Source: Agrococcus jejuensis
GTDB lineage: Bacteria; Actinomycetota; Actinomycetes; Actinomycetales; Microbacteriaceae
NCBI RefSeq assembly: GCF_900099705.1
Contig: NZ_LT629695.1
Coordinates: forward strand, 2,046,001 to 2,110,000
DNA: 64,000 bases
Direction of reading: 5' to 3'
In this document: piece by piece, positions 2,685 to 18,152 of the stretch
Layout: each line of letters begins with the position of its first letter
Numbering within the stretch: the first letter of the stretch is position 1
The notes under the pieces: model-generated
What the model saw: only the letters and a program-made list of their open reading frames with translations
Database searches by the model: none
Told to the model about the DNA's origin: nothing
Translations under genes and position numbers: made by a program

Positions 2685-3365
2685 TCAGTCGACGGTGGGC
2701 ACCGAGCCGGTGCCCGCCTGCACGACGCCGTGCTCGTACGCCCAGATGACGGCGTGGATGCGGTCGCGGATGCCGAGCTTCATGAGCACGTTCGACACGT
2801 GGGTCTTCACGGTGGCCTCGCCGACGTAGAGGCGCTCGGCGATCTCGCCGTTGGAGTGGCCGCGGGCGAGCAGCATGAGCGTCTCGCGCTCGCGCTCGGT
2901 GAGGGTGTCGAGCTCGACCGCCTCGGGCAGGGCAGTCGTGCCGTCGGGCGTCGCGAAGCGCTCGATGACGCGGCGCGTGACGGCGGGCGCGAGCAGCGCA
3001 TCCCCGCGGGCGAGGGCGTGGATGGCGTCGATGAGGTGCTCGGGCTCGGCCGTCTTCAGCAGGAAGCCCGAGGCGCCGGCGCGCAGGGCCTCGAAGAGGA
3101 AGTCGTCGCGGTCGAACGTCGTGAGCATGAGCACGGAGGCGCCGGAGTCGCCGTCGCAGATCTCGCGCGTGGCGGCGAGGCCGTCGAGCACGGGCATCTG
3201 CACGTCCATGCAGATGACGTCGGGGCGCAGCTGCGCCGCCTTCGCCACGGCCTCGCGTCCGTCGGCGGCCTCGCCGACGACCTCGAAGCCGGGCTCGGTC
3301 TCGAGGATGGTGCGGAAGCCGACGCGCACGAGCGACTGGTCGTCGACGAGCAGGATGCGGGTCAC
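2685..3365 (-). CDS. LuxR/NarL-family response regulator
   Basis: The 226-residue protein has a receiver domain (about 1-120) with the acidic pair at D8-D9 and the phospho-acceptor D54 in CMDVQMP, then a NarL-type helix-turn-helix (about 155-220) with LTERERETLMLLARGHSN and ATVKTHVSNVLMKLG. It is the partner of the histidine kinase just upstream: its ATG overlaps the kinase stop (ATGA). Phosphorylation would promote dimerisation and binding to unknown promoters. Confidence 0.93.
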   Translation of the reverse strand: MTRILLVDDQSLVRVGFRTILETEPGFEVVGEAADGREAVAKAAQLRPDVICMDVQMPVLDGLAATREICDGDSGASVLMLTTFDRDDFLFEALRAGASGFLLKTAEPEHLIDAIHALARGDALLAPAVTRRVIERFATPDGTTALPEAVELDTLTERERETLMLLARGHSNGEIAERLYVGEATVKTHVSNVLMKLGIRDRIHAVIWAYEHGVVQAGTGSVPTVD

Positions 3366-4750
3366 TCGGAGCTCCTCGTGGCGGCGGGATGCGGGGTGCT
3401 GGTGTCGTTCGTCGCGTCGGCGTCGAGCAGCGCGCGCTCGACGTCGTCACGTTCGGCGGCGATCGCGGCGGCGATCGACGCGGCGGCCTCTCGACCCGCG
3501 TGCGGGGTCGCCGCATCCGTCTCGGCAGCGGCGGCCGCGACGATGCGCGTGGGCAGCGTCGCCCGCACGAGCCATCCGCCGGTCGGGCGGGGCCCGGCCT
3601 CGAGCGAACCGCCGACGGCGGCGACGCGCTCGCGCATGCCCGTGAGGCCCATGCCGGTGCCGAGCGCGCGAGCCGGGGCGCCGTGGCCGTCGTCGGAGAC
3701 CTCGACCTCCACGACGTCGCCGCGGTAGCGCAGGCGCGCGTCGACGTGCGCGGTCGGGCCGGCGTGCTTGCGGGCGTTCGTGAGCGACTCCTGCAGCACG
3801 CGCACGAGCGTCAGCTCGGCCATCGGCGACACCGCCGAGGGCTCGCCGACGACGCGGTAGTCGACGATCTGGCCGGCGTCCTGCGCGGTCGCGAGCAGGC
3901 CATCCACGTCGGCGAGCGTCGGCATGGGGCCGTCGCCGTCGCCGTCGCTGCGCAGGGCGACGACCATGGTGCGCAGCTCCGCGATGGCGTCGCGCGCGGA
4001 CTGCTCGACGTTGCGCAGCGCATGCTCGGCGCGGTCGGCGTCGGTGCGCAGCGTGCGGCGCGCGGCGCCGGCCTGCACGCCCATCGCGGAGACGTGGTGG
4101 GCGACGACGTCGTGCAGCTCGCGCGCGATGCGCACCCGCTCGAGGGTCACGGCCTGCTCGGCGAGCTGGTCGCGCTGGGTGACGATCTCGGCGTGCGCAT
4201 CCTCGAGCTCCTCCTGCTCGAGCGCACGCGTGTAGGCGCGGTCGCCGAACACCCACGCGCCGCCGAAGTAGGCGACGTTGATGGCGGTGAGGATGAACAT
4301 CTGCGAGATGACCGCGGTCGTCGCGGGCTCCGACGTGAGGGTCGTGAAGAACGCCCAGCCGAGCCACACAGCCATGACGACGACGACGCCGATGCGCACC
4401 CACAGCGCGCGGCGACGGTTCGGATCCCACGCGCCCACGGAGTAGACGGCGAGGAACATGATGACCTGCGAGACGGTGAGCTCGACGATGCCGAGCTGCC
4501 CGAACACGATGTAGAGCGCCGACGACAGGATCGCCGGCACCCACGGCCAGATGCGGCGCACGGCGAGCGGCGCGGCCATGGCGAACGAGGTGAGCACGAA
4601 CGCCCACGCGGGGGTGTCGTCGTGCACGAGCATGTACTGCGCGACCGAGCCGAGCACGCCGACGACGGCGCTCACGAGTCCGAGCGCGGCGGCGACGAGG
4701 ACGTCGGTGCGCAGCTCGGCCCGCGTCGGGCGTCGGCGGGTGACGGGCAT
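3362..4750 (-). CDS. Sensor histidine kinase (HisKA_3 type)
   Basis: The 462-residue kinase has several N-terminal membrane spans (roughly residues 15-165) and no large extracytoplasmic domain. A coiled segment leads to the HisKA_3 box ARELHDVVAHHVSAMG, whose His is the phosphorylation site. The ATPase domain shows the N-box QESLTNARKHAG and the G-boxes VSDDGHGAP and GTGMGLTGMRER. This is the DesK/NarX-like class that pairs with NarL-type regulators, and its regulator is coupled to it. The start is ATG 4748-4750; a frame reaching 5116 is rejected because it overlaps the next gene. A TAGCCT hexamer lies 7 nt before the ATG. Confidence 0.9.
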   Translation of the reverse strand: MPVTRRRPTRAELRTDVLVAAALGLVSAVVGVLGSVAQYMLVHDDTPAWAFVLTSFAMAAPLAVRRIWPWVPAILSSALYIVFGQLGIVELTVSQVIMFLAVYSVGAWDPNRRRALWVRIGVVVVMAVWLGWAFFTTLTSEPATTAVISQMFILTAINVAYFGGAWVFGDRAYTRALEQEELEDAHAEIVTQRDQLAEQAVTLERVRIARELHDVVAHHVSAMGVQAGAARRTLRTDADRAEHALRNVEQSARDAIAELRTMVVALRSDGDGDGPMPTLADVDGLLATAQDAGQIVDYRVVGEPSAVSPMAELTLVRVLQESLTNARKHAGPTAHVDARLRYRGDVVEVEVSDDGHGAPARALGTGMGLTGMRERVAAVGGSLEAGPRPTGGWLVRATLPTRIVAAAAAETDAATPHAGREAAASIAAAIAAERDDVERALLDADATNDTSTPHPAATRSSE

Positions 4751-4825
4751 GCGCTCCAGGCTATGCGCGGTGCGTGGGAGGCGCCTCAGTCGTGCGGGGG
4801 AGTGGTGGGAGCCGTTGGTCCTCGC

Positions 4826-4868
4826 AACCGCTCCGTGTGGTGCGAGCAAAGCGAGCCTCGAGGGGAGC
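4826..4868. repeat. Short intergenic GCGAGCNAAGCGAGCC element, degenerate copy
   Basis: GTGCGAGCAAAGCGAGCCTCGAG in the 4751-4872 gap, between the histidine-kinase start and the helicase stop, is a one-base variant of the element best preserved at 53228-53265 and 56099-56138. Confidence 0.55.
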
Positions 4869-4872
4869 CGAC

Positions 4873-6582
4873 CTACGCGCCCGCCGCCTCCACCCGCTCC
4901 ACGAGCGACGGGTCGACGGTCAGCACGAACAGGTGGTCGGTCGCCCGCGTCGCGCCGACGTAGAGCAGCTCTTCGCCACGCGGTCGCGCGGGATCGACGT
5001 CGGTGAGGATGACGGCGGGCGACTCGAGGCCCTTGTACGCGTGCACCGTGCCCCAGCGGATGCGGTTCGGCACGATCGCGGTCGCGCCGGGAGGGGCGAG
5101 TCGCTCGTGGAGCCACGGGTCGGTCGCCCGTGCGGCCGCAGAGTCGCGCTTCGGAGCGAGCACGAGGATCTCGTCGAGCCGGTAGCCGTCGTCGACGAGC
5201 GCCACGACGGCGTCCGTGAGCAGCCCCTGCTGCTCCGACTCGTCCGCGTACGACACGACCTTGCCGCGTCCGTCATCCATGCGCAGTCGCTCGCGGAACA
5301 GCTCGTCGCCCGTGAGCGCCTCCACGAGCTCGGCGAGCGCGGGCGCCGCGCGGGCGTTGTCGACGAGGCGCGTGATGGTGCTGTGCGGGATGCGCTCGCG
5401 CACGCGGGCGAGGCCGTCGGCCGTGGTGTCGGAGCGGCGGAAGATGTCCTGCCGCTCGAAGTCGCCGGCGACGAGGCTGCGGCTGGCGGCGAGGCCGCCG
5501 TCGACGATGGAGTCGAGCACGTCGAGCACGAGCGGACGCGAGAGGTCCTGCGCCTCGTCGACGACGAGGGCCGTGAACCGCGGCGCGTAGTCGTCGGCCT
5601 GCGTGATCACGAGGGTCTCGCGCGGCAGCACCTCGTTCCACCATTCGTCGCTCGCGTGCTCGGGAGCCTCGAGCCCGGTGAGTTCGAGCATGATCTTGTG
5701 CGCTCGAGCGACGGTGACGCCGTCGTGTCGGGCGAGCGTGGCGTCGAGCACGCCTTCGAGGCGCTCGTTGAAGCACGTCACGAGCACGCGTTCGTCGCGG
5801 TTCGCGAGCCGACGTGCGGCGCGGATGGCGAGGTTCGTCTTGCCGGTTCCTGCCGGGCCGAGTACGAGGATGCGGTCGTTGTCCTCGACGATCTCGAGGA
5901 TGTGCTCCTGCCGCTCGGTCGCCATCCGGATGCTCTCGGCGCGCGCCTCGCGCCGATCGGCGGGGCCCGCGACGATGCGGAACGCGGGCATGAGCGCGCT
6001 GCGGACGGCCCGCAGCTCGTCGACGTTCGGGGCATCGGAGTACATCGAGACGCCGCGGTGCTCGAGCATGGCGCGCTGCTTGCGGAGCGCTGCGACGACC
6101 GCACCGGCGAGGCGCTGCGGCTGCCGATCGGCACGGCTGAGCAGCTCGCCCGGGTCGAGGTCGATGCGCGCCGGGATGCCTGCGAGGCGCTCGCCGCCGA
6201 TGTGCGTGAACCACACGACGGACGCGATGGGGAACGCGACGCGCTCGCCCTTGCGTCGCAGCCACGCCTCGACGCTGCGCATGTTGTCGCGTGCCTGCGT
6301 GATCGGCGACCGCTGCTGCCGCTTGCCGCCGAGCACCCACTCGTTGTGCTCGTTCAGCTCGACGCTCTGGTGCGACTTCACCTCGATCACCAGCAGTCCC
6401 TCGCCGGGCACGAGCACGACGAAGTCGGCCTCGCCCTCGATCTGCCGAGCGTGCTGCACGATCGGCAGCCCGTGGAAGGCGATCCAGCCCTCGGTGCCCG
6501 GTGCGTCCCGCAGCGCGGCGAACAGCGCCTGCTCGCCCGGAGGCGCGTCGGCCGGGCAGGTGCCGGGGATGAGGGCGGTCAC
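4873..6582 (-). CDS. NERD-domain, UvrD-like helicase fusion
   Basis: The 569-residue protein starts with a nuclease-related (NERD) domain, about residues 10-150. Its conserved acidic/lysine pattern is visible as GEADFVVL (D53) and LLVIEVKS (E67, K69), the PD-(D/E)XK layout. A superfamily 1 helicase core follows: Walker A GPAGTGKT (242-249), Walker B VVDEAQD (DEAQD 342-346), a WGTVHAYKGLE motif and motif VI VGATRATDHL (542-551). The ATG at 6580-6582 overlaps the stop of the HNH gene, so both are made together. NERD-helicases are common in anti-phage loci; the pairing with a nuclease makes DNA processing or defence likely. Confidence 0.85.
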   Translation of the reverse strand: MTALIPGTCPADAPPGEQALFAALRDAPGTEGWIAFHGLPIVQHARQIEGEADFVVLVPGEGLLVIEVKSHQSVELNEHNEWVLGGKRQQRSPITQARDNMRSVEAWLRRKGERVAFPIASVVWFTHIGGERLAGIPARIDLDPGELLSRADRQPQRLAGAVVAALRKQRAMLEHRGVSMYSDAPNVDELRAVRSALMPAFRIVAGPADRREARAESIRMATERQEHILEIVEDNDRILVLGPAGTGKTNLAIRAARRLANRDERVLVTCFNERLEGVLDATLARHDGVTVARAHKIMLELTGLEAPEHASDEWWNEVLPRETLVITQADDYAPRFTALVVDEAQDLSRPLVLDVLDSIVDGGLAASRSLVAGDFERQDIFRRSDTTADGLARVRERIPHSTITRLVDNARAAPALAELVEALTGDELFRERLRMDDGRGKVVSYADESEQQGLLTDAVVALVDDGYRLDEILVLAPKRDSAAARATDPWLHERLAPPGATAIVPNRIRWGTVHAYKGLESPAVILTDVDPARPRGEELLYVGATRATDHLFVLTVDPSLVERVEAAGA

Positions 6583-7553
6583 GGGACCAGAGTCATCGGT
6601 GAGGGTCGGTGCTGCGTCCAGTGCGCGTCGAGCCAGGTGTCGTGGCCGCGATCGATGGGCACTTGGATCGCCTGGCGATGCAGCGCGGCATACGCGGGGT
6701 AGTCACGCGCCTCGGGTGCTACATCCAGGCGACGTTCTCGCACAGCAATGACGCCGTCATCGAAGAGCCGGTGGACGTCGCGGCGCAGGAGCAGACCGCC
6801 CGATGACTCGTGCCGACCGTGCCGGGCGTAGGAGTAGAGGTGAGCCGCTTCCAACGCCTGGAACGGGGCGGGGCCAGTGAATGCACACGTCGATCCGAAT
6901 CGCTGGAGCAGTTGATTGCGGAAGTTTGCCTGGCCGATGCGTGCTCTGGTGAACACGGTGACGTGTCCGTCGGCGGATCGCTCTTCGTGCCAGCTGAGCG
7001 ATCGGCGTGCAAGCAGATCGATGGCGGCGGGCAACTCGGCGATGACCCGTTCGGCCACCATCGGCCGGATCGCGTTCTGGTCGCCGCGATGCAACTGGAG
7101 CTCTGCCAGTTCCGACCGGCTCAGCGCGCCCGCGAGGTCGACCCAGGCCGGGCCGTGATGGCTGCGATAGCGGGTGGTGGGCTCGGTGGCCTCAACGCGC
7201 TGGTCGAACTCAGAGCGACATGCCTGGCAGCGGTATCTAGGTGCGCGCTGCTTTCGCTCGGCCACCTTGGCCGAGCCGCATACCGGACACGCGTATGTCT
7301 GACGAGTCGACGCCTCGAGCGTGATGTCGTCGATGACCGAGATGCCGATCAGGGCCTCGGTATCGCGGAGCAGGATGACGTCGCCCTCCCGGACGCTGCG
7401 ACCGTTGTTGACTGCGCTCGTCCACTCGTAGGTCTGCGACGGGTCGTCGTCGTAACCGTCGTGATTCTGCAATCCACGTTGGTCGCCCACCGCGAGCATG
7501 AGCCACACCTGAGGTTCGAGGTCCGACTCCACGAGTCGAGCGAGCACGTCCAT
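6579..7553 (-). CDS. EVE-like / zinc-ribbon / HNH endonuclease
   Basis: Three parts can be seen in 324 residues. Residues about 15-85 resemble an EVE/PUA-like fold (VWLMLAVG, then SVREGDVILLRDTEALIGIS), the kind that reads modified bases. Residues 89-112 form a zinc ribbon (C89, C92, C109, C112). Residues 205-275 are an HNH_2-type nuclease with FRNQLLQRFG, C223, EAAHLY (H238) and LLLRRDVHRLFDDG (H261). The EVE assignment is inferred from pattern, the HNH is clear. Hand-counted lines in this gene are near 60-67% GC against 70% or more around it, suggesting transfer. Known EVE-HNH proteins are type IV-like, modification-dependent nucleases. Confidence 0.8.
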   Translation of the reverse strand: MDVLARLVESDLEPQVWLMLAVGDQRGLQNHDGYDDDPSQTYEWTSAVNNGRSVREGDVILLRDTEALIGISVIDDITLEASTRQTYACPVCGSAKVAERKQRAPRYRCQACRSEFDQRVEATEPTTRYRSHHGPAWVDLAGALSRSELAELQLHRGDQNAIRPMVAERVIAELPAAIDLLARRSLSWHEERSADGHVTVFTRARIGQANFRNQLLQRFGSTCAFTGPAPFQALEAAHLYSYARHGRHESSGGLLLRRDVHRLFDDGVIAVRERRLDVAPEARDYPAYAALHRQAIQVPIDRGHDTWLDAHWTQHRPSPMTLVP

Positions 7554-7620
7554 GGACCCAGTGTCGCAAGGTCAGCTGAAGCGATGCCGAGCGCGGACCG
7601 GGCCGCGCGGTTCTTCCTCC

Positions 7621-7878
7621 TCACGGCTGCGAACGTCCGACGCGCGTGCCCCACTGATGCTTGTGCAGCGCCGCCAGCAGCGCGCGCGACGACTCCAGGC
7701 GCTCGCGGAAGAACTCGACGTCGGGCTGGGCGTTCAGCGCCGACTGATCGCGGCCCGCGAGGATGCCGGCCGCTTCGACGAGGCGGTCGAAGTCGCGGCG
7801 GGACAGAGAGATCGCGTGTCGGGGAGCAGCGTCAGGATCGGTCCAGAGCGCGACCATGGCGTGGGGGTCTCGGTGCAT
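7621..7878 (-). CDS. Small hypothetical protein upstream of the HNH/helicase operon
   Basis: An 85-residue soluble protein with no recognised domain. It is mostly charged and helical (LSRRDFDRLVEAAGILAG, FFRERLESSRALLAALHKHQ). The start is put at ATG 7876-7878; GTG 7909-7911 would add 11 residues, and neither has a strong ribosome-binding site. It lies 67 nt upstream of the HNH gene on the same strand, so it may be the first gene of a three-gene operon. A frame on the opposite strand overlaps it but has poorer protein character. Confidence 0.5.
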   Translation of the reverse strand: MHRDPHAMVALWTDPDAAPRHAISLSRRDFDRLVEAAGILAGRDQSALNAQPDVEFFRERLESSRALLAALHKHQWGTRVGRSQP

Positions 7879-7973
7879 GACGGCAGCCTCGCCGCGATCG
7901 CGGTGCTGCACAGCTGATGACGGCCACAGCTGCCCGCCGTTGCTTTGAGGCGATCGTCAGCTGACGGCGAGGG

Positions 7974-8588
7974 TCACGACCCCACCAACCCCACGATCTC
8001 GCTCGCCACGTCGTCCACGTCCGAGTAGCCGTCGAAGGTGCGGTCCGGCTCCGCCGAGCGGTCGGCGGCCGAGACGAGGGCCTTCACGCGGATGACGTGC
8101 GTGGTCGCCGGGGTCGCTCGCAGGGCGTGGCTGACGGCGGCGAGCCAGGTCTCGGCCGCTGCCTTCAACGACACGTACGACGCATTGCCCGCCGTCGGGC
8201 GATCCAGGCCCGTCGTCGAGATGATCACGACGCGACCGGCGGAAGACGCTCCCAGCGCAGCCTCGAACGCCCGCGTCGTGTTGCGCAGCGTGCCGACGAC
8301 GCGCTGCTCGAGCCAGGCCCAGTCCTCGTCCGACTGGCCGGCCAGGCCGCCGCCGCCGCGCCATCCGCCCACGAGGTGCACGAGCGCATCCACCGGTCCG
8401 ACCGACGCAGCAAGCGACGAGACCGCGGAGAACGACGTCAGATCGCACACCACCCGCTCGTCGGCATCCACCGGCTCCAGCCGCTCGGCCGACGAGCCGA
8501 CGGCGATCACGTGATGGCCCGCCGCACGTGCCGCGCTCGCGGTGGCGCGGCCGAGGGCGCTGGACGCTCCGGCGATGAGGATCCGCAT
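7974..8588 (-). CDS. Short-chain dehydrogenase/reductase family protein
   Basis: A 204-residue Rossmann-fold protein. The cofactor loop GASSALGRATA is at residues 7-17; a VHLVGGW segment takes the place of the NAG motif. The catalytic Ser region is VIISTTGL and the active-site Tyr-Lys pair is in SYVSLKAA. It is shorter than classical SDRs (about 250), ending soon after the substrate loop. Start ATG 8586-8588 carries a CAGACT hexamer 6 nt upstream, while the longer frame to 8669 adds a poor N-terminus. Substrate unknown. Confidence 0.85.
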   Translation of the reverse strand: MRILIAGASSALGRATASAARAAGHHVIAVGSSAERLEPVDADERVVCDLTSFSAVSSLAASVGPVDALVHLVGGWRGGGGLAGQSDEDWAWLEQRVVGTLRNTTRAFEAALGASSAGRVVIISTTGLDRPTAGNASYVSLKAAAETWLAAVSHALRATPATTHVIRVKALVSAADRSAEPDRTFDGYSDVDDVASEIVGLVGS

Positions 8589-8740
8589 CGCACCAGTCTG
8601 CCGAACCCGAGCGCCGAGGCCGAGCGCAGATCGCTTGACAACCCCCATCCGCCCCGCGAATCTCGACATGAAGACCGGTGTCGCAGGGTTGCGACATCCC
8701 TGCCACCCGTGCGCGATATGGGATTCCTAGCGTTGGAGCC

Positions 8741-9289
8741 ATGAGCACGCACAACCCCATCGCCCAGCCCCGCTGGGTCGCGCTCGCCGCGCTGACCCTC
8801 GTCGCGGTCGGCAGCCTCTCCGGCTGCGGACTCGCCTTCTCCGAGCCGGATGCATCCCCGGCGCCGCCGGCGAGCTCGCCGCAGACGCCGAGCACCGAGC
8901 CCGCCGACGACGACCCGGCGGAGAGCCCCGCGGAGAGCCCCGAGGAGTCCGACCCCACCGAGATCGGCGCGCCGAGCGCCGAGCGCGACGAGCTCATCGC
9001 CCGCGCGCAGCAGACCGTCCCCTGCTCGGCCGGCCTCGACGTCGCGAACGACGGCGCGATCATCCGCGTCGAGGGCGCATGCGACGAACTCACGGTCAGC
9101 GCCGACGCCGCCATCGTCATCGCCGACGACGTCACGACCCTCACGGTCAGCGGCTCCGGCAGCGTCGTCTACGCCCTCGAGCTCGCCGACCTGCGCATCT
9201 CGGGCGACGTCAACGAGGTGCGCTGGACGGGCGCGACCCCCGCCGTGACCGACGACGGCACGGCCAACACGATCGGACAGCAGCGATGA
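8741..9289 (+). CDS. DUF3060-like secreted lipoprotein
   Basis: A 182-residue lipoprotein: the hydrophobic signal segment ends in the lipobox LSGC, with C29 as the lipidated residue. An Asp/Pro/Glu-rich linker (about 35-75) follows, and then a repetitive beta region (CSAGLDVANDGAIIRVEG, LTVSGSGSVVYALEL) typical of DUF3060. The start at ATG 8741 is chosen because the signal peptide begins there; TAGCGT lies 7 nt upstream. It heads an operon with a DUF4190 protein and a two-component system, so it may be sensed or regulated by that system. Confidence 0.82.
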   Translation: MSTHNPIAQPRWVALAALTLVAVGSLSGCGLAFSEPDASPAPPASSPQTPSTEPADDDPAESPAESPEESDPTEIGAPSAERDELIARAQQTVPCSAGLDVANDGAIIRVEGACDELTVSADAAIVIADDVTTLTVSGSGSVVYALELADLRISGDVNEVRWTGATPAVTDDGTANTIGQQR

Positions 9290-9696
9290 GCGCCCCGGCT
9301 CCCACGCAGCAGTCCGCGCCGACGACGGTGCAGCCGACGATGGATGCGCACGCCCAGCCGAGCGCGGATGCGCACGCACCGCACCCCGCATCCGGCCCGC
9401 ACCAGCCCACCTGGCAGGGCCACCCGCAGCCCGGCTACGCCTACCCGGCGCCGCAGCCCGCCCGCCCCATGAGCGGCCTCGCGATCACGACGTTCGTGCT
9501 CGGCCTGCTGGGCCTCGCGATCCTGCCGATCGTGCTCGGTCACATCTCCATCGCGATGATCCGGCGCTCGGGCCAGGGCGGCATCGCGTTCGCGATCGTC
9601 GGCACCGTGCTCGGCTACCTCTACCTCGCCGGATACGTGCTGCTGCTCGCGATCGCGGGCCTCGGCATCCTCGCCGGCACCTCCGGATGGCTCTGA
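9286..9696 (+). CDS. DUF4190 domain membrane protein
   Basis: The 136-residue protein has a Pro/Gln/His-rich cytoplasmic leader (residues 1-60) and then two membrane spans, LAITTFVLGLLGLAILP and VLGYLYLAGYVLLLAIAG, the hairpin that defines DUF4190. The start ATG overlaps the stop of the lipoprotein gene (ATGA). Function unknown; such proteins are often envelope accessories. Confidence 0.82.
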   Translation: MSAPAPTQQSAPTTVQPTMDAHAQPSADAHAPHPASGPHQPTWQGHPQPGYAYPAPQPARPMSGLAITTFVLGLLGLAILPIVLGHISIAMIRRSGQGGIAFAIVGTVLGYLYLAGYVLLLAIAGLGILAGTSGWL

Positions 9697-9697
9697 C

Positions 9698-10417
9698 ATG
9701 ACCGACGCGACCCGCCCCTCGCTGCTGCTCGTCGACGACGACGATGCCATCACGGCCGGCCTCGGCGCGTTCCTCGCGCGCAGCGGCTACGAGGTGCGGG
9801 TCGCGGCGGATGGGCAGGCCGCCCTCGACGCGGTCGCCGAGCAGCGGCCCGACCTCATCGTCTGCGACATCGTCATGCCGCGGCTCGACGGACGGGAGGT
9901 CGTGCGGCGCATCCGCGCAGCTGACGACTGGGTGCCGATCATCCTGCTGACGCAGGTGGGGGAGTCGTACGAGCGGTCGGCGGCACTCGACGAGGGTGCC
10001 GACGACTACCTCGGCAAGCCGTTCGACCCGCAGGAGCTGCTGTCGCGCGTGCGCGCCGTGCTGCGCCGGTCGGTGCGCGGCGAGCGGCCCCTGTCGGCAG
10101 CCGTGCGGCTGCGCGCCGACGGCCTCGAGCTCGACCGCACCGCTCGCCGGGCCTGGCTCGACGGCACCGAGGTCGTGCTGACGCCGAAGGCGATGACGCT
10201 GCTCGACTTCCTCATGTCGCACCCCGACGAGGCCCACGCGCGCGAGCGGCTGCTCGCGACCCTCTGGGGCTTCGAGTCGCTCACGACGACGCGCGCCGTC
10301 GACCACCGCGTCGCCGAGGTGCGCCGCGTGCTCGGCGACGACGCCGCGCATCCGCGGTTCGTCGAGACCGTGCAGAGCACCGGGTACCGCTTCAAGGGGC
10401 CGGTGAGCGTCGCGTGA
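9698..10417 (+). CDS. OmpR/PhoB-family response regulator
   Basis: A 239-residue protein: receiver domain (about 7-120) with acidic cluster DDDD (13-16), D57 in CDIVMP as phospho-acceptor, T at LLTQVGES and the conserved Lys in GKPFDP. The C-terminal winged helix contains LTPKAMTLLDFLMSHP and AVDHRVAEVRRVLG, ending in VETVQSTGYRFK. It begins one base after the DUF4190 stop and is coupled to the kinase gene that follows. Confidence 0.94.
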   Translation: MTDATRPSLLLVDDDDAITAGLGAFLARSGYEVRVAADGQAALDAVAEQRPDLIVCDIVMPRLDGREVVRRIRAADDWVPIILLTQVGESYERSAALDEGADDYLGKPFDPQELLSRVRAVLRRSVRGERPLSAAVRLRADGLELDRTARRAWLDGTEVVLTPKAMTLLDFLMSHPDEAHARERLLATLWGFESLTTTRAVDHRVAEVRRVLGDDAAHPRFVETVQSTGYRFKGPVSVA

Positions 10418-11373
10418 CCCGCCGCATCCTGCTCGCGCTCGTGCCCCTGCTCGTCGGGGTGGTTGGGGCCGTGACGCTCGCGATCGCGGGCGTGCGCACG
10501 GAGGCGATCCTCACGGTGCCGCTCACGACCGCTGCGCTCGTGTTCGGTCTGCTGGTCTCGGTGCTGCTCGTGCTGCTCGTGGTGCGCGCGCGTCGTCGGG
10601 CGCTCGCTCGCGGTCGCATCGAGGATGCGCGGCAGCAGGGGATCGCGCAGGGCAGCGCCGCCGAGCGCGAGGCGCATCGCCGGTTCCTCGCTCGGCTCGA
10701 TCACGAGCTGAAGAACCCGGTGCAGGCGATCCGCGCGACCGTCGCGGCGGTGCCGGGCGCCGCATCCGACCCGCGGCTCACGACCGTCGACGCGCAGGCG
10801 TCGCGCCTCGCATCCCTCGTCGGCGACCTTCGTGGACTCTCCGACCTCGAGACCCGCCCGCTCGAGCTCGAGCCCGTCGACCTCGAGCAGCTGCTGCACG
10901 ACTGCGTCGCGTCGCTGGCGCAGCAGCATCCGGATGCGGCGTCGCAGGTGTCGGTGCAGGTCACGCGCGTGCCGTGGCCGGTGCCGACGATGCGGCTCGA
11001 CCTCGACCTCGTGGGCCTCGCGATCGACAACGTGCTCGCCAACGCGCGCAAGTTCGGCGGCGGCGGGCCGGTGGAGGTGCGGCTGCGCGAGTCCGACGGG
11101 TGGGCGGTCGTCGAGGTCGCCGACTCGGGGCGCGGCGTGCCCGCCGACGAGGCTGCGCACGTGTTCGACGAGCTCGCCCGCGCCCGCAACGCCCGCGACG
11201 TGCCCGGCTCGGGCATCGGCCTGTCGCTCGTGCGCACCGTCGTGCAGCGGCACGGCGGCTCGGTCGCGCTGCGGTCGCGCGAGGGCGAGGGCACGGTCGT
11301 CGAGCTGCGTCTGCCGCCCGCTCCGCCCGCGGATGCGCCGGGTGTGGGGATGCCGTCGGCGGGTGTGCGCTGA
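10414..11373 (+). CDS. Sensor histidine kinase (HisKA/HATPase_c)
   Basis: The 319-residue kinase starts at GTG 10414, overlapping the regulator stop (GTGA). Two closely spaced membrane helices (about 5-27 and 33-57) leave almost no extracytoplasmic loop, so the stimulus may be membrane-borne or come from the lipoprotein/DUF4190 partners. H-box: FLARLDHELKNPVQAI. ATPase boxes: N-box IDNVLANARKF, G1 VADSGRGVP, F-box VFDELAR, G2 GSGIGLSLVRT. All kinase residues appear intact. Confidence 0.93.
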   Translation: MTRRILLALVPLLVGVVGAVTLAIAGVRTEAILTVPLTTAALVFGLLVSVLLVLLVVRARRRALARGRIEDARQQGIAQGSAAEREAHRRFLARLDHELKNPVQAIRATVAAVPGAASDPRLTTVDAQASRLASLVGDLRGLSDLETRPLELEPVDLEQLLHDCVASLAQQHPDAASQVSVQVTRVPWPVPTMRLDLDLVGLAIDNVLANARKFGGGGPVEVRLRESDGWAVVEVADSGRGVPADEAAHVFDELARARNARDVPGSGIGLSLVRTVVQRHGGSVALRSREGEGTVVELRLPPAPPADAPGVGMPSAGVR

Positions 11374-11390
11374 CCAGCCATCCGTTCCGG

Positions 11391-11490
11391 TGACTGGTCG
11401 CAGTTGCACCACACTGGTCGCAGTTTCGGTGCAATGGCGACCAGTCATGCGTGCATCTGCGACCAGTCGCGTGCAACTGCGACCAGTCCC
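11391..11490. repeat. ACTGGTCGC repeat cluster 1
   Basis: Between two convergent genes lie five copies of a short unit: ACTGGTCGC forward near 11393 and 11413, and its complement GCGACCAGT near 11437, 11459 and 11479, several followed by AGTTGCAC-like sequence. Forward and reverse units can pair as hairpins. Related clusters are at 38360-38479 and 39127-39265. It may serve as a bidirectional 3'-end structure. Confidence 0.75.
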
Positions 11491-11497
11491 GGAGGGG

Positions 11498-12280
11498 TCA
11501 GTCGGTCGAGGTGCTCGAGCCGTCGACGCCCGCACGAGACGCGGCAGCCTCGTCCTCGGCGCGCAGGCGCTCCCACTGCTCCTGCCGCAGCGCGCCGCGG
11601 TGCACGAGCACGGCGGAGAGACCCATGAGGATGAGCCACGCGATGATCGGGTAGACCGCGAGCCGCTCGATGCCGCCCACGCCGAGGCCCAGGTCGGCGC
11701 CGGGCGTCGACGGCAGCAGCACGAGGCCGACCATGCCGACGGCGCCGATCGCGACGAGCACGAGCGACAGGATGCCCACCCCGCGCCAGCGCCGCGCGAG
11801 CATCCCGAGCCCGGCGACGAGCATCCACACGAGCCCGCCGCCGATCGCGAGCATCGCGCCGACGCCGTGGATCGCGGCGCGCGTCGCGTCACCCCCGAGG
11901 TCCTCGGCGATCGATCCCGGGAAGGTGCCGACGAGCAGCATCCCCACGCCGTGCACGACGCCCAGCGCCGTCGCCGCCCACCGCCACGCGCGCGGCAGCA
12001 GCCACGCGAGCTGCCACACCGCGACGAGCACGATGAGCCCCTGCAGCACGAACGCCGCATCCATGAGCAGCCACTGCGGCGAGCACACGACGCGGTCCTC
12101 GAGCACGAGGCACTCGGGCACGCCGAGGTCGGAGATGTAGTTGTCGCCGAACGAGTACGGCGCCGACGTCCACGCCGCCGACACCACCTGCTCGGCGATG
12201 AGGTACTGCGCCGTCGCCACGAGCGCGACGCCGCCGCGGGCGAGGCGGCGGTCGGTGAGGTCGGGGGCGGATGCGGTCAC
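11498..12280 (-). CDS. DUF998 family membrane protein
   Basis: The 260-residue product has about six membrane spans. The DUF998 pattern is recognisable: a first loop containing YSFGDNYISDLG, a mid-protein GVVHGVGMLLVGTFPGS, and an IHGVGAMLAIGGGLVWML span. Start is taken at GTG 12278-12280, with CAGGCT 6 nt upstream; a longer frame to 12334 adds only Arg/Cys-rich residues. Function unknown. It converges on the histidine-kinase gene across a repeat cluster. Confidence 0.8.
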   Translation of the reverse strand: MTASAPDLTDRRLARGGVALVATAQYLIAEQVVSAAWTSAPYSFGDNYISDLGVPECLVLEDRVVCSPQWLLMDAAFVLQGLIVLVAVWQLAWLLPRAWRWAATALGVVHGVGMLLVGTFPGSIAEDLGGDATRAAIHGVGAMLAIGGGLVWMLVAGLGMLARRWRGVGILSLVLVAIGAVGMVGLVLLPSTPGADLGLGVGGIERLAVYPIIAWLILMGLSAVLVHRGALRQEQWERLRAEDEAAASRAGVDGSSTSTD

Positions 12281-12390
12281 CCGACAAGCCTGGCACGCGC
12301 AGCGGGTGCGGGATGCGGCGGGCAGGGAGCGCACCGCGATGGCGGTCGCCCAGGACGGGGTCGCGGACCAGCCTCCTCGCGGGGACCCTT

Positions 12391-12423
12391 CGAGGCTCGC
12401 TTCGCTCGCACCTCAGGGAGCGG
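12391..12423. repeat. Short intergenic GCGAGCGAAGCGAGCC element (inverted copy)
   Basis: On the minus strand this reads CCGCTCCCTGAGGTGCGAGC followed by GAAGCGAGCCTCG, matching the copies at 34334, 53228 and 56099. It lies between divergent genes. Confidence 0.6.
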
Positions 12424-12497
12424 CGGTGGGAGCGCACCCATCCACGCCCACGCCCCGGACACTGGCCGCGCACCGCGTCGAGGAGGAAGGTAGGGGC

Positions 12498-12992
12498 ATG
12501 CGCCCCGAGCCCATCCCGCCGAAGCCCGGCCAGGAGTCCGTCTGGGACTACCCGCGGCCGCCCCGACTCGAGGACGCCGGCGTGCACATCGTCGTGCGGC
12601 TCGCCGGCACGATCGTCGCGCAGACCGACGACGCGCTGCGCGTGCTGGAGACGAGCCATCCGCCGACCTACTACCTGCCGTCGGAGGCGTTCGCGCCCGG
12701 CGCGCTCGTGCCCGCCGCGGGCGCGAGCATGTGCGAGTGGAAGGGCCGAGCGCGCTACGCCGACGTGCGCGCCCTGGGCCACTCCGTCGCCCGCGCTGCC
12801 TGGACGTACCCGACGCCGAACGCCGGCTACGAGCGCATCCGCGACCACTGGGCGATCATGCCCGGCGCCCCGCTCGTCTGCACCGTCGACGGCGAGGAGG
12901 TCGTGCCGCAGGACGGCGGCTTCTACGGCGGCTGGATCACGTCGAAGGTCGCGGGCCCGTTCAAGGGCGGCCCGGGCTCCATGGGCTGGTAG
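12498..12992 (+). CDS. DUF427 domain protein
   Basis: A 164-residue protein with the DUF427 signature: VWDYPRPPRLED near the start, VLETSHPPTYYLP, SMCEWKGRARYADV, and a C-terminal GGFYGGWITSKVAGPFKGGP. These small beta-rich proteins are widespread in actinobacteria; their biochemical role is not established. The start ATG 12498 has a GGAGGAAGG upstream. A GC-rich hairpin after the stop separates it from the convergent surface-protein gene. Confidence 0.88.
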   Translation: MRPEPIPPKPGQESVWDYPRPPRLEDAGVHIVVRLAGTIVAQTDDALRVLETSHPPTYYLPSEAFAPGALVPAAGASMCEWKGRARYADVRALGHSVARAAWTYPTPNAGYERIRDHWAIMPGAPLVCTVDGEEVVPQDGGFYGGWITSKVAGPFKGGPGSMGW

Positions 12993-13033
12993 CCCAGCGC
13001 GACCGGCACGACCGAAGCCCCACCGCACGAAGA

Positions 13034-13061
13034 AGGGGCGCGAGCCGAAGCCCGCGCCCCT
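13034..13061. terminator. Bidirectional terminator-like hairpin
   Basis: AGGGGCGCG at 13034-13042 pairs with its complement at 13053-13061. It lies between convergent genes ending at 12992 and 13077. Confidence 0.6.
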
Positions 13062-13076
13062 CCACCCTCCCGTGGG

Positions 13077-16000
13077 TCAGCCCGTGCAGGCCGTCAGGTC
13101 GAACACGCTCTGGTCGAGCGCGTTCTGGTCGCCGAGGAGCACGATCTGGGGGTCGTCCAGACGGTCCACCTCGCCGAGCACGTCAGCCCACATGCACGTC
13201 GGTCGGGTCACGAACACCGGCACGCCCTGCGCGCCAGCGATCGCGGATCCGGCCAGCGCATCCGGGAATCGGAGACCGGTGGCGACGTAGATGCGGTCGG
13301 CGCTGCCGGCGAACGAGTCCTGCGCCACGAGCACGCCCGTGTCGAATCGGTTCGCACCGGCGTAGCGCTCGGCGATCGTGAAGCCAGCCGACTGGAACGC
13401 CGCCTCCTGGCTCGTCGCGACCGCGTTCGCGTCACCCGCGATGTACAGGTCCTCGACGCCCAGGTCCTGCAGGCTCGAGATGAGCCCCGGCGTCGGGGTG
13501 GCACCGTACGTCAGCAGCAGCGGCGCGTTCAGCGCACCTGCCGCGGCGCCGGCCGTCAGCGCGTCGGGGAAGTTGAGCCCCGTCGCGATGTAGGCCGAGT
13601 CGGCGCCGTTGAACGCGTACTCCGCGATGAGGATCGACGTCTCGAAGCGGTTCGCGCCGCCGAGTCGCACGATGTCGCCCGCGTACGGGTCGACCTGCGA
13701 TGCGACGTTGGCGCTCACCGAGTTCTCGTCGCCGAGGATCACCACGATGTCCGGGTCGAGGCGGTCGAGCTCCTGGATGACGGACGGCTCCAGGTACTCC
13801 TGACGGGTCAGGAGCAGCGGGGCGTCCTGCTGCGCGGCAGCGGGGGCTGCCGACAGCGCATCCGGGAACTTCAGGCCGTTGGCGAGGTAGACCACGTCGG
13901 CGCCGAACGGGAAGGCGTCGCGCGAGATCTCCACGGCCGTCTGGAACCGGTCGGGGCCGGCGAGACGGATGACGGGGTCGCCAGCGGCCCGCACCGAGAA
14001 GGTGTCGGATGCGCTGCGCGGGCCCTGCACGCCCGTCGCGGTCAGCGTCTGCGGCGCCGTCACGGTGGGCGGCACCTGGAACGCGCCGGTCACGAGCGCG
14101 CCGTCGGGGGCGACGGAGACGGGCACCGTGCCGAGCACGACGCTGTCCTCGTCGGTCACCGACACCGCGACCGTGCCCTGCGTCGGGTCCCAGCCCTCGC
14201 CATCCAGCGCGACGAGCTGGCCGGGCTCGACGGCGCTCGGCGACACGATGAGCGTCGCCGGGCCGGCGGGCACCTGCACGACCGTGACCGTGGCGGTCTC
14301 GGTCTTGCCGTCCTGCACCGCGGTGAAGGTCAGCGGGCCCAGCGGCACCTCGCCCAGGACGTAGAAGCCCTGCGAGAACGCGGAGTCCGCCGACGTCGCC
14401 GTGAACGAGCCCACGACGGCGCCGCCCGTGGCGGTGGCGATGATGCTCACGGTGCCGTCGGACCAGCCGGTGCCCGAGACGGTCACGACCTGGCCGCGCT
14501 GCACGACCGGGGGCGTCGCGGCGAGCGTCTCCTCGAGGTCGATCTCGAGCTCGGTCTCACCCTCGTCGTCGCACGGTGCGGAGGCGGAGGTGACGGCCGT
14601 GATGGTGACGGAGTCCACGTCGATGCCCGTGGGCACCGTCCAGATCTGCGTCCACTCGCCGTCGATCACCGGCACGAGCGCGTACGTCGCGACGACGGTC
14701 GAGCCCGAGGCGATCGTGATGTCCACGGGGCCGCAGAGGAAGCCGGTGCCCGTGATCGTGACCGGGTCGCCCGGGTCGACGGGGTCGGGATCGGCGGTGA
14801 CGACCGCGTCCTCCAGCACCTCGAGGGGCGTGGTGGCCTCGTCGGTGCCGTCGTCGGCGGTGACCGTGAGGTCGGCCGGGCCGGTGCCGTCGGGGATCGT
14901 GAACGTGCCGGTGATGACGCCGTCGACGGGCGTCAGCACGAGCGGCGGCTCGCCCTCGATGATCGTCACCGTCACGTCGTCGTCGCCCCAGCCGGAGCCG
15001 CCGATCGTCACGGTGTCCTCGTCGTGCACGCGGCCGGGCGTCGCCGTGACCGTGGGCGCGAGCGTGACCTCGAGCTCGGTCGTGGCCGTGTCGACGCCCT
15101 GCGTGGCCGTGGCCGTGAGGGTGCCGGCGGGGGTGCCGTCGGGCACGAGGAACTCGTCGGCGATCACGCCGTCGGCGGGCGTGATGACGAGCGGCTCGCC
15201 CACAGGCTCGTCGAGCTCGTTCGTGAAGATCACCGTGACGTCGCCGGGGCCCCAGCCGGAGCCTCCGACCTGCACGGTGTCGAGCGGACGCGCGATGCCG
15301 GGCGTGACCGTGACCGACGGCTCGGGCACGACGGTGAGCGACGTCGCCGCATCCTCGTCGCCCTGCACGGCGGTGACGATGACCGAGCCCGTCGCGGTCC
15401 CCGCGGGGATCGCGAACTGGTCGGCGATCGTGCCGTCGTCGGCGATGTCCGCCTCGGCGATCGTGACGGTGCCGATGGGCGCGCCGCCCTGCGTGAAGGT
15501 GACGACGACGTCGCCGCCTGCGGGCAGCCAGCCGCCGCCCGTGACGTCGACGGTCGCGCCGACGCGCACGCTCGGCGGGTCGACCGCCACGGTGGCGGCG
15601 CCGAAGATCTCCACGGCGTCGGTCAGCGTGTCGTCGCCCTGCACCGCGGTGGCGTCGAGCGTGCCGAGCGGCGCATCGGTCGGCACCGTGAAGGTGCCGT
15701 CGAGCGAGCCGCCCGTGCCCGGCGGGATCGTGACGGGCGAGCCGACCGGCGTGCCGTCGTGCGAGAACGTCACGGTGACGTCGGTGCCCTCGGTCCAGCC
15801 GGCGCCCGTGATGTCGAGCACGTCGCCGAGGCGAGCCTCGGCCTGCGCGACGTCGAACTCCTCGGGGAGGTCGATGTCGACCGGGGTCTCCTCGTCCTCC
15901 TCGCACTCGCCCGAGCCGTAGGCGCGGATCGTGACCTGCGTCACGTCGATGTCCTCGGGCACCTCCCACACGACCGACCAGGATCCGTCGGTCTCGGAGA

Positions 16001-18152
16001 CGGGCACGTCGGTGAAGGTGTCGATGACGTCGGTGCCGTCGAGGATGTCGACGGTGAGCGGGCCGCAGATGAAGCCCTCGCCGCTGATCGTCACGGGCGT
16101 GCCGGGGTCGAGCGGGGGCTCGGGGTCGACGATGATCACGGGCGGTCCGAAGACGTCGACGCTCGCCGACGCGGGGGCGCCGTCCTGCGTCGCCGTGCCG
16201 GTGAGGGTGCCGATCGCGGTGTCGCCGGGCACCGTGAAGGTGCCGGTGATGCCGCCCTCGCCGTCGAGCGTCGCCGTCACCGGGGCGCCGACGGGGTTCT
16301 CGTTCTCGTCGACGAATGCCACCGTGACGGGGCCGCCGTCGGGGTTCCAGCCGGAGCCGGCGATGTCGACCGTGTCGCCCTGGTGCACGCGCGGGGGCGT
16401 GAGCTCGAGCGTGCCGGCGACGGCCGACGGCTCGACGTTCGACACCGACGACGAGCCGAGGTCGATGTTCGCGAGGTTCGAGCCGAGCGCGTTCGGCAGC
16501 AGCGTGATCGTCATGGCCCGCACGGTGTAGCCGTCGGGGATGTCGACCTCCTCCGTGCCGGACATCGTCGAGTAGCCGTCGCGGTTCGTGGCGAACGGCT
16601 GGCCGCCGCCTGCGACGAGGTGCGGCTGCACGTTCACCGTGATGCTGGCGATGTTGCTCGCGACGCCCGAGAGGGCCGGGCTCAGCAGGTTCGTGGCACC
16701 CACGACGACGCCCTGGATCGCGGTCGAGACGTCGCCGCTGGACGCGGCGAGGATGTTCGCGACGGGGGTCGCGAGTCCGGCGACGATGGCGGGCACGATG
16801 GTGCCGACGAGCTCCGTGGTGAGTCCGCTGACCAGGCCGTTGACGAGACCCTGGACGGCAGGGCCGACGATGGGGCCGAGGCTCGCGATGAGCCCGGGGA
16901 TGAGCGCGATGTTCACCGTGCTGGTGGCGGTGCCGTTCGCGAACTGGCCGATCGTGCCCGAGATGAGGATCGAGCCGTCGATGATGGGGATCGTGCCGAC
17001 GCCGAGCGGCAGCGCGGCCGACGCGGCGACGTCGATGCCCACCGTGAGCGACGTCGTGTTCAGCAGCGTGCTGACGGAGTTGGTCAGCGGCGTCGTGATG
17101 TCGCCGAGCGCGCTCGCGATGCCCGTCGTGAGCGCCTGGATGGTGTCGGCGTCGAGGATCTGCGTGTTGGGGTCGAGGCCGTTGAGCCCGATGCCGTCCG
17201 GGTTCACGATCTGCGCGAGATCGACCGAGACGGCGCCGGTGGCGAGGTCGATCGTGACCGACTGGTCGTCGGAGACGAGCACGCCGTTCGATCCGCCGAG
17301 CGCCGTGTCGACGGCCGCCGACAGGTCGGGCGCCGTGACGTTGACCTGGATGTCGTCGAGCGTGAGGCTCGCGAGCCCGAGTGCGTTGAGGTCGACGTTC
17401 AGGCCGTCGAGCACGTCCTGCACGGCGCCGTCGGGGCCGGCGAGGCCGTTGAGGTCGGTGCGCAGGTCGATCGTGACGCCCGTGAGGCCCGTGCGCAGCT
17501 GGGTCGTGATGCCCGCGACGAGGTCGGAGTGCACGTCGAGCGTGAGGTCGGTGAGGAGGTACTCGGAGTCGAAGGCGTCGTCGACCTCGGTCGCGTGCGA
17601 GCCGAAGGCGCCGAGCTCGAGGGAGACCTGGTCGACGATCTCGTCGGTCACCGCGTCGACGCCGAGGCTGCCGAGCAGCGCGGTGAGGTCGACGGACGAC
17701 GAGCCCGTGCCGGAGGGCGGCTCCTCGTTCGGGTCGAGCTGGAGCCCGCCGTCCTCGTCGAGGAGGCCGGCGGCGGCGACGGCGTCGTTCGCGCTCGACG
17801 CGTCGGCGTAGCTCGAGAGCACGCCGGCGCCGCCGAGCTCGAGCAGGCCGTTGTCCTGGCCCGCGTGGAGGAGTGGCACCGTGAGGCCGTCCTCGATGAC
17901 TTCGAGCTCGCCGCCGAGCAGGCCAAGGTTGAGGCCGTTGGAGTCGATGCCGGGGTTGCTGGGGAAGGCCGACTGCGAGAAGGCCGTGGCGAGGAGGTCG
18001 TCGGAGCCAAGCAGCTCGACGCCGAGCACCTCTCCGAACGCCTCCGCGGTGTCGCCTGGCGCCGCTGACGCGGGCGCGACTCCGAATCCCGCGATCGCGA
18101 TGGCCGCTGCTGCGACCCCCGCGATCGGCTTCCATGTTGCTGTGCGACGCAT
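13077..18152 (-). CDS. Choice-of-anchor G surface protein with nine Ig-like domains and three CWB2 repeats
   Basis: A 1691-residue secreted protein. The signal peptide has positively charged MRRTATWK, a hydrophobic core and an ASA cleavage region near residue 30. Residues about 35-600 are rich in DL..LG..TDAV-like repeats typical of choice-of-anchor G proteins. Nine Ig/IPT-like domains follow, each opening with a GDTV..GSGW-type motif; the second and seventh carry Cys pairs (GFICGP, GFLCGP and later Cys) suggesting disulphides. About 300 C-terminal residues form three CWB2 cell-wall binding repeats (RLAGPDRFQTA, RLGGANRFETS, RYAGANRFDTG, each with FPDAL). No LPxTG, so anchoring is through CWB2. 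RBS AGGGGG before ATG 18152. Confidence 0.88.
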   Translation of the reverse strand: MRRTATWKPIAGVAAAAIAIAGFGVAPASAAPGDTAEAFGEVLGVELLGSDDLLATAFSQSAFPSNPGIDSNGLNLGLLGGELEVIEDGLTVPLLHAGQDNGLLELGGAGVLSSYADASSANDAVAAAGLLDEDGGLQLDPNEEPPSGTGSSSVDLTALLGSLGVDAVTDEIVDQVSLELGAFGSHATEVDDAFDSEYLLTDLTLDVHSDLVAGITTQLRTGLTGVTIDLRTDLNGLAGPDGAVQDVLDGLNVDLNALGLASLTLDDIQVNVTAPDLSAAVDTALGGSNGVLVSDDQSVTIDLATGAVSVDLAQIVNPDGIGLNGLDPNTQILDADTIQALTTGIASALGDITTPLTNSVSTLLNTTSLTVGIDVAASAALPLGVGTIPIIDGSILISGTIGQFANGTATSTVNIALIPGLIASLGPIVGPAVQGLVNGLVSGLTTELVGTIVPAIVAGLATPVANILAASSGDVSTAIQGVVVGATNLLSPALSGVASNIASITVNVQPHLVAGGGQPFATNRDGYSTMSGTEEVDIPDGYTVRAMTITLLPNALGSNLANIDLGSSSVSNVEPSAVAGTLELTPPRVHQGDTVDIAGSGWNPDGGPVTVAFVDENENPVGAPVTATLDGEGGITGTFTVPGDTAIGTLTGTATQDGAPASASVDVFGPPVIIVDPEPPLDPGTPVTISGEGFICGPLTVDILDGTDVIDTFTDVPVSETDGSWSVVWEVPEDIDVTQVTIRAYGSGECEEDEETPVDIDLPEEFDVAQAEARLGDVLDITGAGWTEGTDVTVTFSHDGTPVGSPVTIPPGTGGSLDGTFTVPTDAPLGTLDATAVQGDDTLTDAVEIFGAATVAVDPPSVRVGATVDVTGGGWLPAGGDVVVTFTQGGAPIGTVTIAEADIADDGTIADQFAIPAGTATGSVIVTAVQGDEDAATSLTVVPEPSVTVTPGIARPLDTVQVGGSGWGPGDVTVIFTNELDEPVGEPLVITPADGVIADEFLVPDGTPAGTLTATATQGVDTATTELEVTLAPTVTATPGRVHDEDTVTIGGSGWGDDDVTVTIIEGEPPLVLTPVDGVITGTFTIPDGTGPADLTVTADDGTDEATTPLEVLEDAVVTADPDPVDPGDPVTITGTGFLCGPVDITIASGSTVVATYALVPVIDGEWTQIWTVPTGIDVDSVTITAVTSASAPCDDEGETELEIDLEETLAATPPVVQRGQVVTVSGTGWSDGTVSIIATATGGAVVGSFTATSADSAFSQGFYVLGEVPLGPLTFTAVQDGKTETATVTVVQVPAGPATLIVSPSAVEPGQLVALDGEGWDPTQGTVAVSVTDEDSVVLGTVPVSVAPDGALVTGAFQVPPTVTAPQTLTATGVQGPRSASDTFSVRAAGDPVIRLAGPDRFQTAVEISRDAFPFGADVVYLANGLKFPDALSAAPAAAQQDAPLLLTRQEYLEPSVIQELDRLDPDIVVILGDENSVSANVASQVDPYAGDIVRLGGANRFETSILIAEYAFNGADSAYIATGLNFPDALTAGAAAGALNAPLLLTYGATPTPGLISSLQDLGVEDLYIAGDANAVATSQEAAFQSAGFTIAERYAGANRFDTGVLVAQDSFAGSADRIYVATGLRFPDALAGSAIAGAQGVPVFVTRPTCMWADVLGEVDRLDDPQIVLLGDQNALDQSVFDLTACTG

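Follow-up and report, generated by a model that had tools for sequence, protein, structure and literature searches.

The window analysed here is a 64,000-nucleotide stretch of Agrococcus jejuensis DNA (assembly GCF_900099705.1, contig NZ_LT629695.1, positions 2,046,001 to 2,110,000), from a genome assembled as a single contig of 3.4 Mb. On its minus strand lie, in order of transcription, a small gene (7621–7878), a gene for a 324-residue HNH nuclease with an EVE-like domain and a zinc ribbon (6579–7553), and a gene for a 569-residue NERD-UvrD helicase-nuclease of superfamily 1 (SF1; 4873–6582), just where an original prediction made from the DNA sequence had placed them. That prediction described the HNH and helicase genes as coupled through a shared ATGA; a four-base overlap of HNH stop and helicase start does exist, but it reads GTGA (6579–6582), the start codon of the helicase being GTG. 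Downstream the locus is flanked by a histidine kinase and a response regulator, upstream by a short-chain dehydrogenase (SDR).

The catalytic core of the HNH protein occupies residues 206–290 or so (6684–6938, minus strand), with a Pfam HNH_2 match (PF13391) to residues 223–271 at 39 bits against a cut-off of 21. Histidines H238 and H261, and the nearby H248, are present in all 92 aligned sequences, as are the four cysteines C89, C92, C109 and C112 of the predicted CxxC..CxxC ribbon (7218–7289, minus strand), while the central asparagine position of the HNH motif is glycine in 90 sequences and alanine in two. The middle residue of this motif is variable across the superfamily. Profile and structure comparison both show the domain to be homologous to the HNH domains of VcaM4I and TagI, which agrees with the original proposal of kinship to modification-dependent enzymes. 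The window frame is open and intact and retains those histidines and cysteines that the family conserves.

In the predicted structure the N-terminus of the HNH protein adopts an EVE/PUA-like barrel of the PUA superfamily (residues about 14–180; 7014–7514, minus strand), supporting a feature that the original prediction had itself put forward as refutable, with the zinc ribbon placed between the model's barrel strands 76–88 and 120–132. The EVE reading depends on structure, because the Pfam matches listed, which extend to an E-value of 1, include neither an EVE nor a PUA model; at the sequence level, residues 1–198 matched neither EVE chains, the list being mostly zinc ribbons, nor Pfam EVE. 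Among structures, the EVE-like domain matches the DrmA N-terminal domain best, in a comparison where VIA-align re-aligns Foldseek candidates only and whose reach is therefore confined to families in the Foldseek list. The putative sensor has conserved aromatic residues (W17, Y34, Y42 and W44), and residue 63, an arginine in the window copy, is tryptophan in 85 of the 92 aligned sequences. An open-access literature search, covering its sources in part, returned no report of a zinc ribbon inserted in an EVE-HNH barrel. Seven of 120 listed family members (P0035, P0047, P0075, P0081, P0099, P0100 and P0103) carry an additional N-terminal helix-turn-helix domain (PF12728).

The HNH gene is foreign in composition, as the original prediction had it, with a GC content of 0.659 and a third-position GC content (GC3) of 0.782, against 0.722 and 0.932 for the helicase gene and means of 0.736 (standard deviation 0.023) and 0.956 (0.020) for 44 window genes longer than 300 bp. 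Since our own simple gene caller was trained on host-like genes and misses foreign ones, the window HNH gene among them, this spread is somewhat too narrow; the contrast of the HNH gene is still large. Two further copies were found in the genus, 37% (genome G014) and 41% (G017) identical to that in the window. The three group together in a quick tree of 86 sequences, with a support of 20 and very long branches, and may on this basis descend from one old acquisition, while separate gains would accord with their low identity and unlike surroundings. Among 94 matching records, nine relatives covering at least 80% of the query lie on plasmids (eight Rhodococcus and one Paenarthrobacter; NZ_AP023173.1 is included). 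Seven phage records match the HNH protein, none over 80% of its length, one being a partial relative in Salmonella phage SEN8 (KT630647.2:1342-2133; 79% covered, 30% identical), and a search of phage contigs gave one partial match.

The helicase carries a NERD nuclease-like domain at residues 16–126 (6205–6537, minus strand; PF08378, 49.5 bits against a cut-off of 22.1), joined to an SF1 helicase part at residues 215–556 or so (4915–5940, minus strand) with a Walker A motif (242–249), a DEAQD motif (342–346) and a UvrD_C_2 match. All 16 aligned helicases keep unchanged the NERD residues named in the original prediction (D53, E67 and K69), together with GxAGxGKT and DE-QD, so that this predicted nuclease-helicase has its active-site residues and SF1 motifs intact. 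PADLOC matches it to RTasNERD-Hel of DRT systems (104 bits) and to C3a187 NERD+UvrD (68 bits), and its nearest named homologues are from Agrococcus. At E ≤ 1e-20 it is found in at least 13 of 24 genus genomes and at least 5 of 75 other relatives searched; here and below, helicase counts for the genus, relatives, family and a listing of 65 places are lower bounds, as part of the first-look candidates was scored in most genomes. Near the intact gene of several loci lie scattered partial NERD-UvrD copies, mostly of the C-terminal half (L040 3341-7858, L046 7686-9873, L035 16411-16635, L038 14884-15036 and L227 12862-13689), with small genes between them, some toxin-antitoxin-like by eye; this scatter suggests recombination at the helicase gene.

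Comparison with the two relatives found to share the locus reveals an exchangeable slot beside the helicase (6583–7648, no strand assigned), which has no counterpart in either and is filled by other restriction genes, different in each. The 85-residue small gene upstream is kept in one of these relatives, where the slot carries another nuclease; no copy was found in the second, so that we reject a conserved three-gene operon; the small gene is not linked to the HNH gene. In searches of Pfam, PADLOC and NCBIfam it gave a single weak NCBIfam match and none in the first two, and its homologues number eight including the window copy, one other being named, in Agrococcus sp. SGAir0287. The SDR gene is present in all 24 genus genomes, and in 17 stretches of 12–13 kb (G003, G005, G010 and G016 set aside) neither a kinase nor a helicase matching at above 35% identity was seen next to it, which leaves a three-genome locus without a simple empty counterpart in the stretches inspected. 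The intergenic stretch at 4815–4891 of the window is repeated at several places of the G023 locus and has one match in that of G009. Elsewhere in the window two very long open genes, of 1650 and 4208 residues (13077–18029 and 40505–53131), look surface-protein-like by eye.

The other genus copies of the HNH gene have different surroundings. In G014 the order is NERD helicase, HNH, sacsin-like ATPase, DrmA, DrmB-like protein, Vsr and C5-methyltransferase, named by eye apart from HNH, helicase and DrmA, the last scoring 502 bits to the window genome's own DrmA. In G017 the neighbour of the HNH gene is a C5-methyltransferase, and the helicase is 22.6 kb away.

The original prediction took the HNH protein and helicase for one system, in which the HNH protein would recognise and nick modified phage DNA and the helicase would load at the cut, unwind and degrade. 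Besides the GTGA overlap, this is favoured by the three HNH-bearing genus genomes, all of which carry the helicase, two of them within 1 kb, and by the recurrence of HNH nucleases of two kinds beside it: EVE-HNH in the window, G014 (L039) and Cellulomonas marina (L052), and a second kind lying divergent from the helicase in L031 (from the genus) and L221 (from another genus) and in two pieces 1.1 kb from it in L228. Of 66 helicase loci, 7 have a gene of either kind no more than 2.5 kb away, one of the seven (L274) being a weak 30-bit match, as against none of 40 controls (p 0.03); the excess is weaker when the class and family sets are taken alone (4/52 versus 0/40, p 0.10) and when HNH cores of any kind are counted within 2 kb (5/66 versus 0/40, p 0.09), and these p values ignore the partial kinship of the loci. 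The 66 loci comprise 40 of the 65 listed places, 12 from the family, 13 others (12 from the genus, and G068) and the window, those left out of the 65 being copies from the genus, places close to a contig end and most of low rank. The controls are 39 offset stretches in 23 of the helicase-locus genomes and one of the window's own genome; two of the 40 contain a generic HNH core, at a distance of over 2.5 kb from the central span.

Co-occurrence points the other way. In the genus the helicase is found in 13 of 24 genomes and the HNH gene in three, all with both, and in the family in 17 and three of 299 genomes, two having both, leaving 10 of 13 and 15 of 17 helicase genomes without this HNH gene. 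Among the best 80 of 139 confirmed HNH places, a helicase relative lies within 10 kb in four, within 5 kb in one, and was not seen in flanks of up to 10 kb in the other 76. The arrangement varies as well, the HNH gene being upstream on the same strand in the window, downstream of the helicase in G014 and divergent in C. marina, and the GC compositions of the two genes are unlike. Homologues of the two genes, whose complete separation would have counted against the original prediction, do occur together in a few places, but most genomes with either do not have both. Because most helicase genomes lack the HNH gene, the flanks of HNH loci mostly show no helicase relative, the slot is exchanged and order and strand vary, a conserved two-gene system is not supported; we regard a joint mechanism as unlikely, and the genes seem to share a small defence hotspot as neighbours instead of making up one new two-part system.

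We instead propose, with a probability of about two in three, that the HNH protein is a stand-alone Type IV EVE-HNH nuclease, acquired into the slot beside a genus-common NERD-UvrD helicase that is a separate defence protein. The EVE-like barrel would flip and read a modified base in foreign DNA, the identity of the base being the most exposed step, after which dimeric HNH domains would cut the duplex in what would be an anti-phage role. The HNH gene would have been acquired by this lineage and landed where relatives have other restriction genes, and the helicase would act separately on broken or foreign DNA.

A rather different possibility, which we hold distinctly improbable, is that different HNH nucleases that sense modification (EVE-Zn-HNH and the second kind) replace one another at one slot and share NERD-UvrD as their effector. 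DISARM would then be a cousin plan, since DrmA supplies, in its N-terminal domain, the best structural match of the EVE-like barrel, and several genomes have a NERD-UvrD gene immediately upstream of DrmA; the G014 cluster already groups NERD helicase, EVE-HNH, sacsin-like ATPase, DrmA, DrmB-like protein and C5-methyltransferase.

We give as little credence to a Type II restriction-modification pair with the HNH protein as its endonuclease, cutting unmethylated sites, and a methyltransferase lost or encoded elsewhere. A PADLOC Type II HNH model does match it weakly (30 bits), and 10 of 83 loci have a C5-methyltransferase frame with one end no more than 250 bp from that of the HNH gene (L035, L051, L064, L072, L076, L098, L116, L125, L126 and L128); these were counted from six-frame reading frames, the gene caller having found 51 of 80 HNH genes. 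The excess of Vsr in HNH neighbourhoods, 7 of 150 against 8 of 432, has a p value of 0.06. However, the adjoining methyltransferases are unlike in their motifs, and the methyltransferase label is scattered on the tree, its 14 rows among 86 requiring 12 changes, unlike a co-evolving pair; on these grounds we reject a fixed Type II pair with the HNH protein as one half. The immediate neighbours of the window copy (SDR, kinase and regulator) include no methyltransferase, the one C5 enzyme of the genome, in a search that covered PF00145 and not adenine or N4 enzymes, sits 686 kb away in a DISARM-like island, and a nuclease without its partner methyltransferase would be lethal. Least probable of all is that the nuclease has decayed or is selfish, of homing type or phage origin, and has no restriction role. 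The plasmid relatives, the partial relative in SEN8 and the arginine in place of tryptophan at residue 63 would suit this, but not the intact frame with its conserved histidines and cysteines, the sensor-nuclease architecture or the occurrence of C5-methyltransferases in HNH neighbourhoods above expectation.

A likely function, that of a modification-dependent nuclease, can be given to an actinobacterial family mostly labelled HNH endonuclease. Its sensor, an EVE-like barrel with an inserted zinc ribbon, is unusual, and the base-reading hypothesis is open to experiment. The locus also presents a small exchange slot beside a NERD-UvrD helicase, with different restriction genes in close relatives, and ties this helicase family to DISARM-like operons; were the helicase truly a modular effector, it would link simple Type IV nucleases and DISARM.

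The closest known enzyme is VcaM4I (PDB 6yex), the best fold match of the window HNH protein and also a significant profile match to its HNH part. Both have an N-terminal EVE/PUA-like domain, a helical linker and a C-terminal HNH domain, in similar lengths (309 and 324 residues). Unlike VcaM4I, the window protein has a four-cysteine ribbon inserted in its barrel and glycine at the central asparagine position of the HNH motif, and the HNH sequences are distantly related. The EVE domain of VcaM4I is reported to bind 5mC and 5hmC DNA with moderate specificity, flipping the base into a pocket of P24, W82 and Y130, and the enzyme to be an HNH dimer with an inhibitory linker helix (PMC7897488); EVE-HNH fusions are described as a class of putative Type IV enzymes (PMC7641849). 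TagI (PDB 6ghs) is a modification-dependent endonuclease with an SRA sensor where the window protein has an EVE-like one. NCBIfam NF045808, a family of phosphorothioate-dependent HNH proteins that we take to be enzymes of the ScoMcrA kind, matches the window HNH part weakly (30 bits, against a family cut-off of 180), and unlike these the window protein has no sulfur-binding domain among its Pfam matches.

The helicase shares its NERD and SF1 helicase domains with PADLOC C3a187 and with RTasNERD-Hel of DRT, but unlike in DRT no reverse transcriptase is among the immediate neighbours of the window locus examined. Likewise, no Drm gene neighbours the window locus. Elsewhere a helicase relative immediately precedes DrmA in 6 of 66 loci, against 0 of 40 controls (p 0.05, again ignoring the partial kinship of the loci), and does so too in the window's own genome some 690 kb away; the NERD-UvrD gene touches DrmA from upstream in L264, L265, L266, L267, L230 and L045. 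The DISARM-like island of this genome (L161, C1:1352000-1371999, 2696-14989) encodes a large sacsin-like ATPase (by eye), a second NERD-UvrD helicase of 494 residues, DrmA (615 bits), DrmB (202 bits) and a C5-methyltransferase. The alignment of this island's DrmA to the solved DrmA begins no earlier than chain residue 221, and the N-terminal domain may therefore be missing. The available text of PMC9142583 names DrmA, DrmB and DrmMII as DISARM genes, and not NERD-UvrD or a sacsin-like protein. Probably the window helicase is a DNA-processing defence protein in its own right, resembling those encoded beside DrmA in DISARM-like operons.
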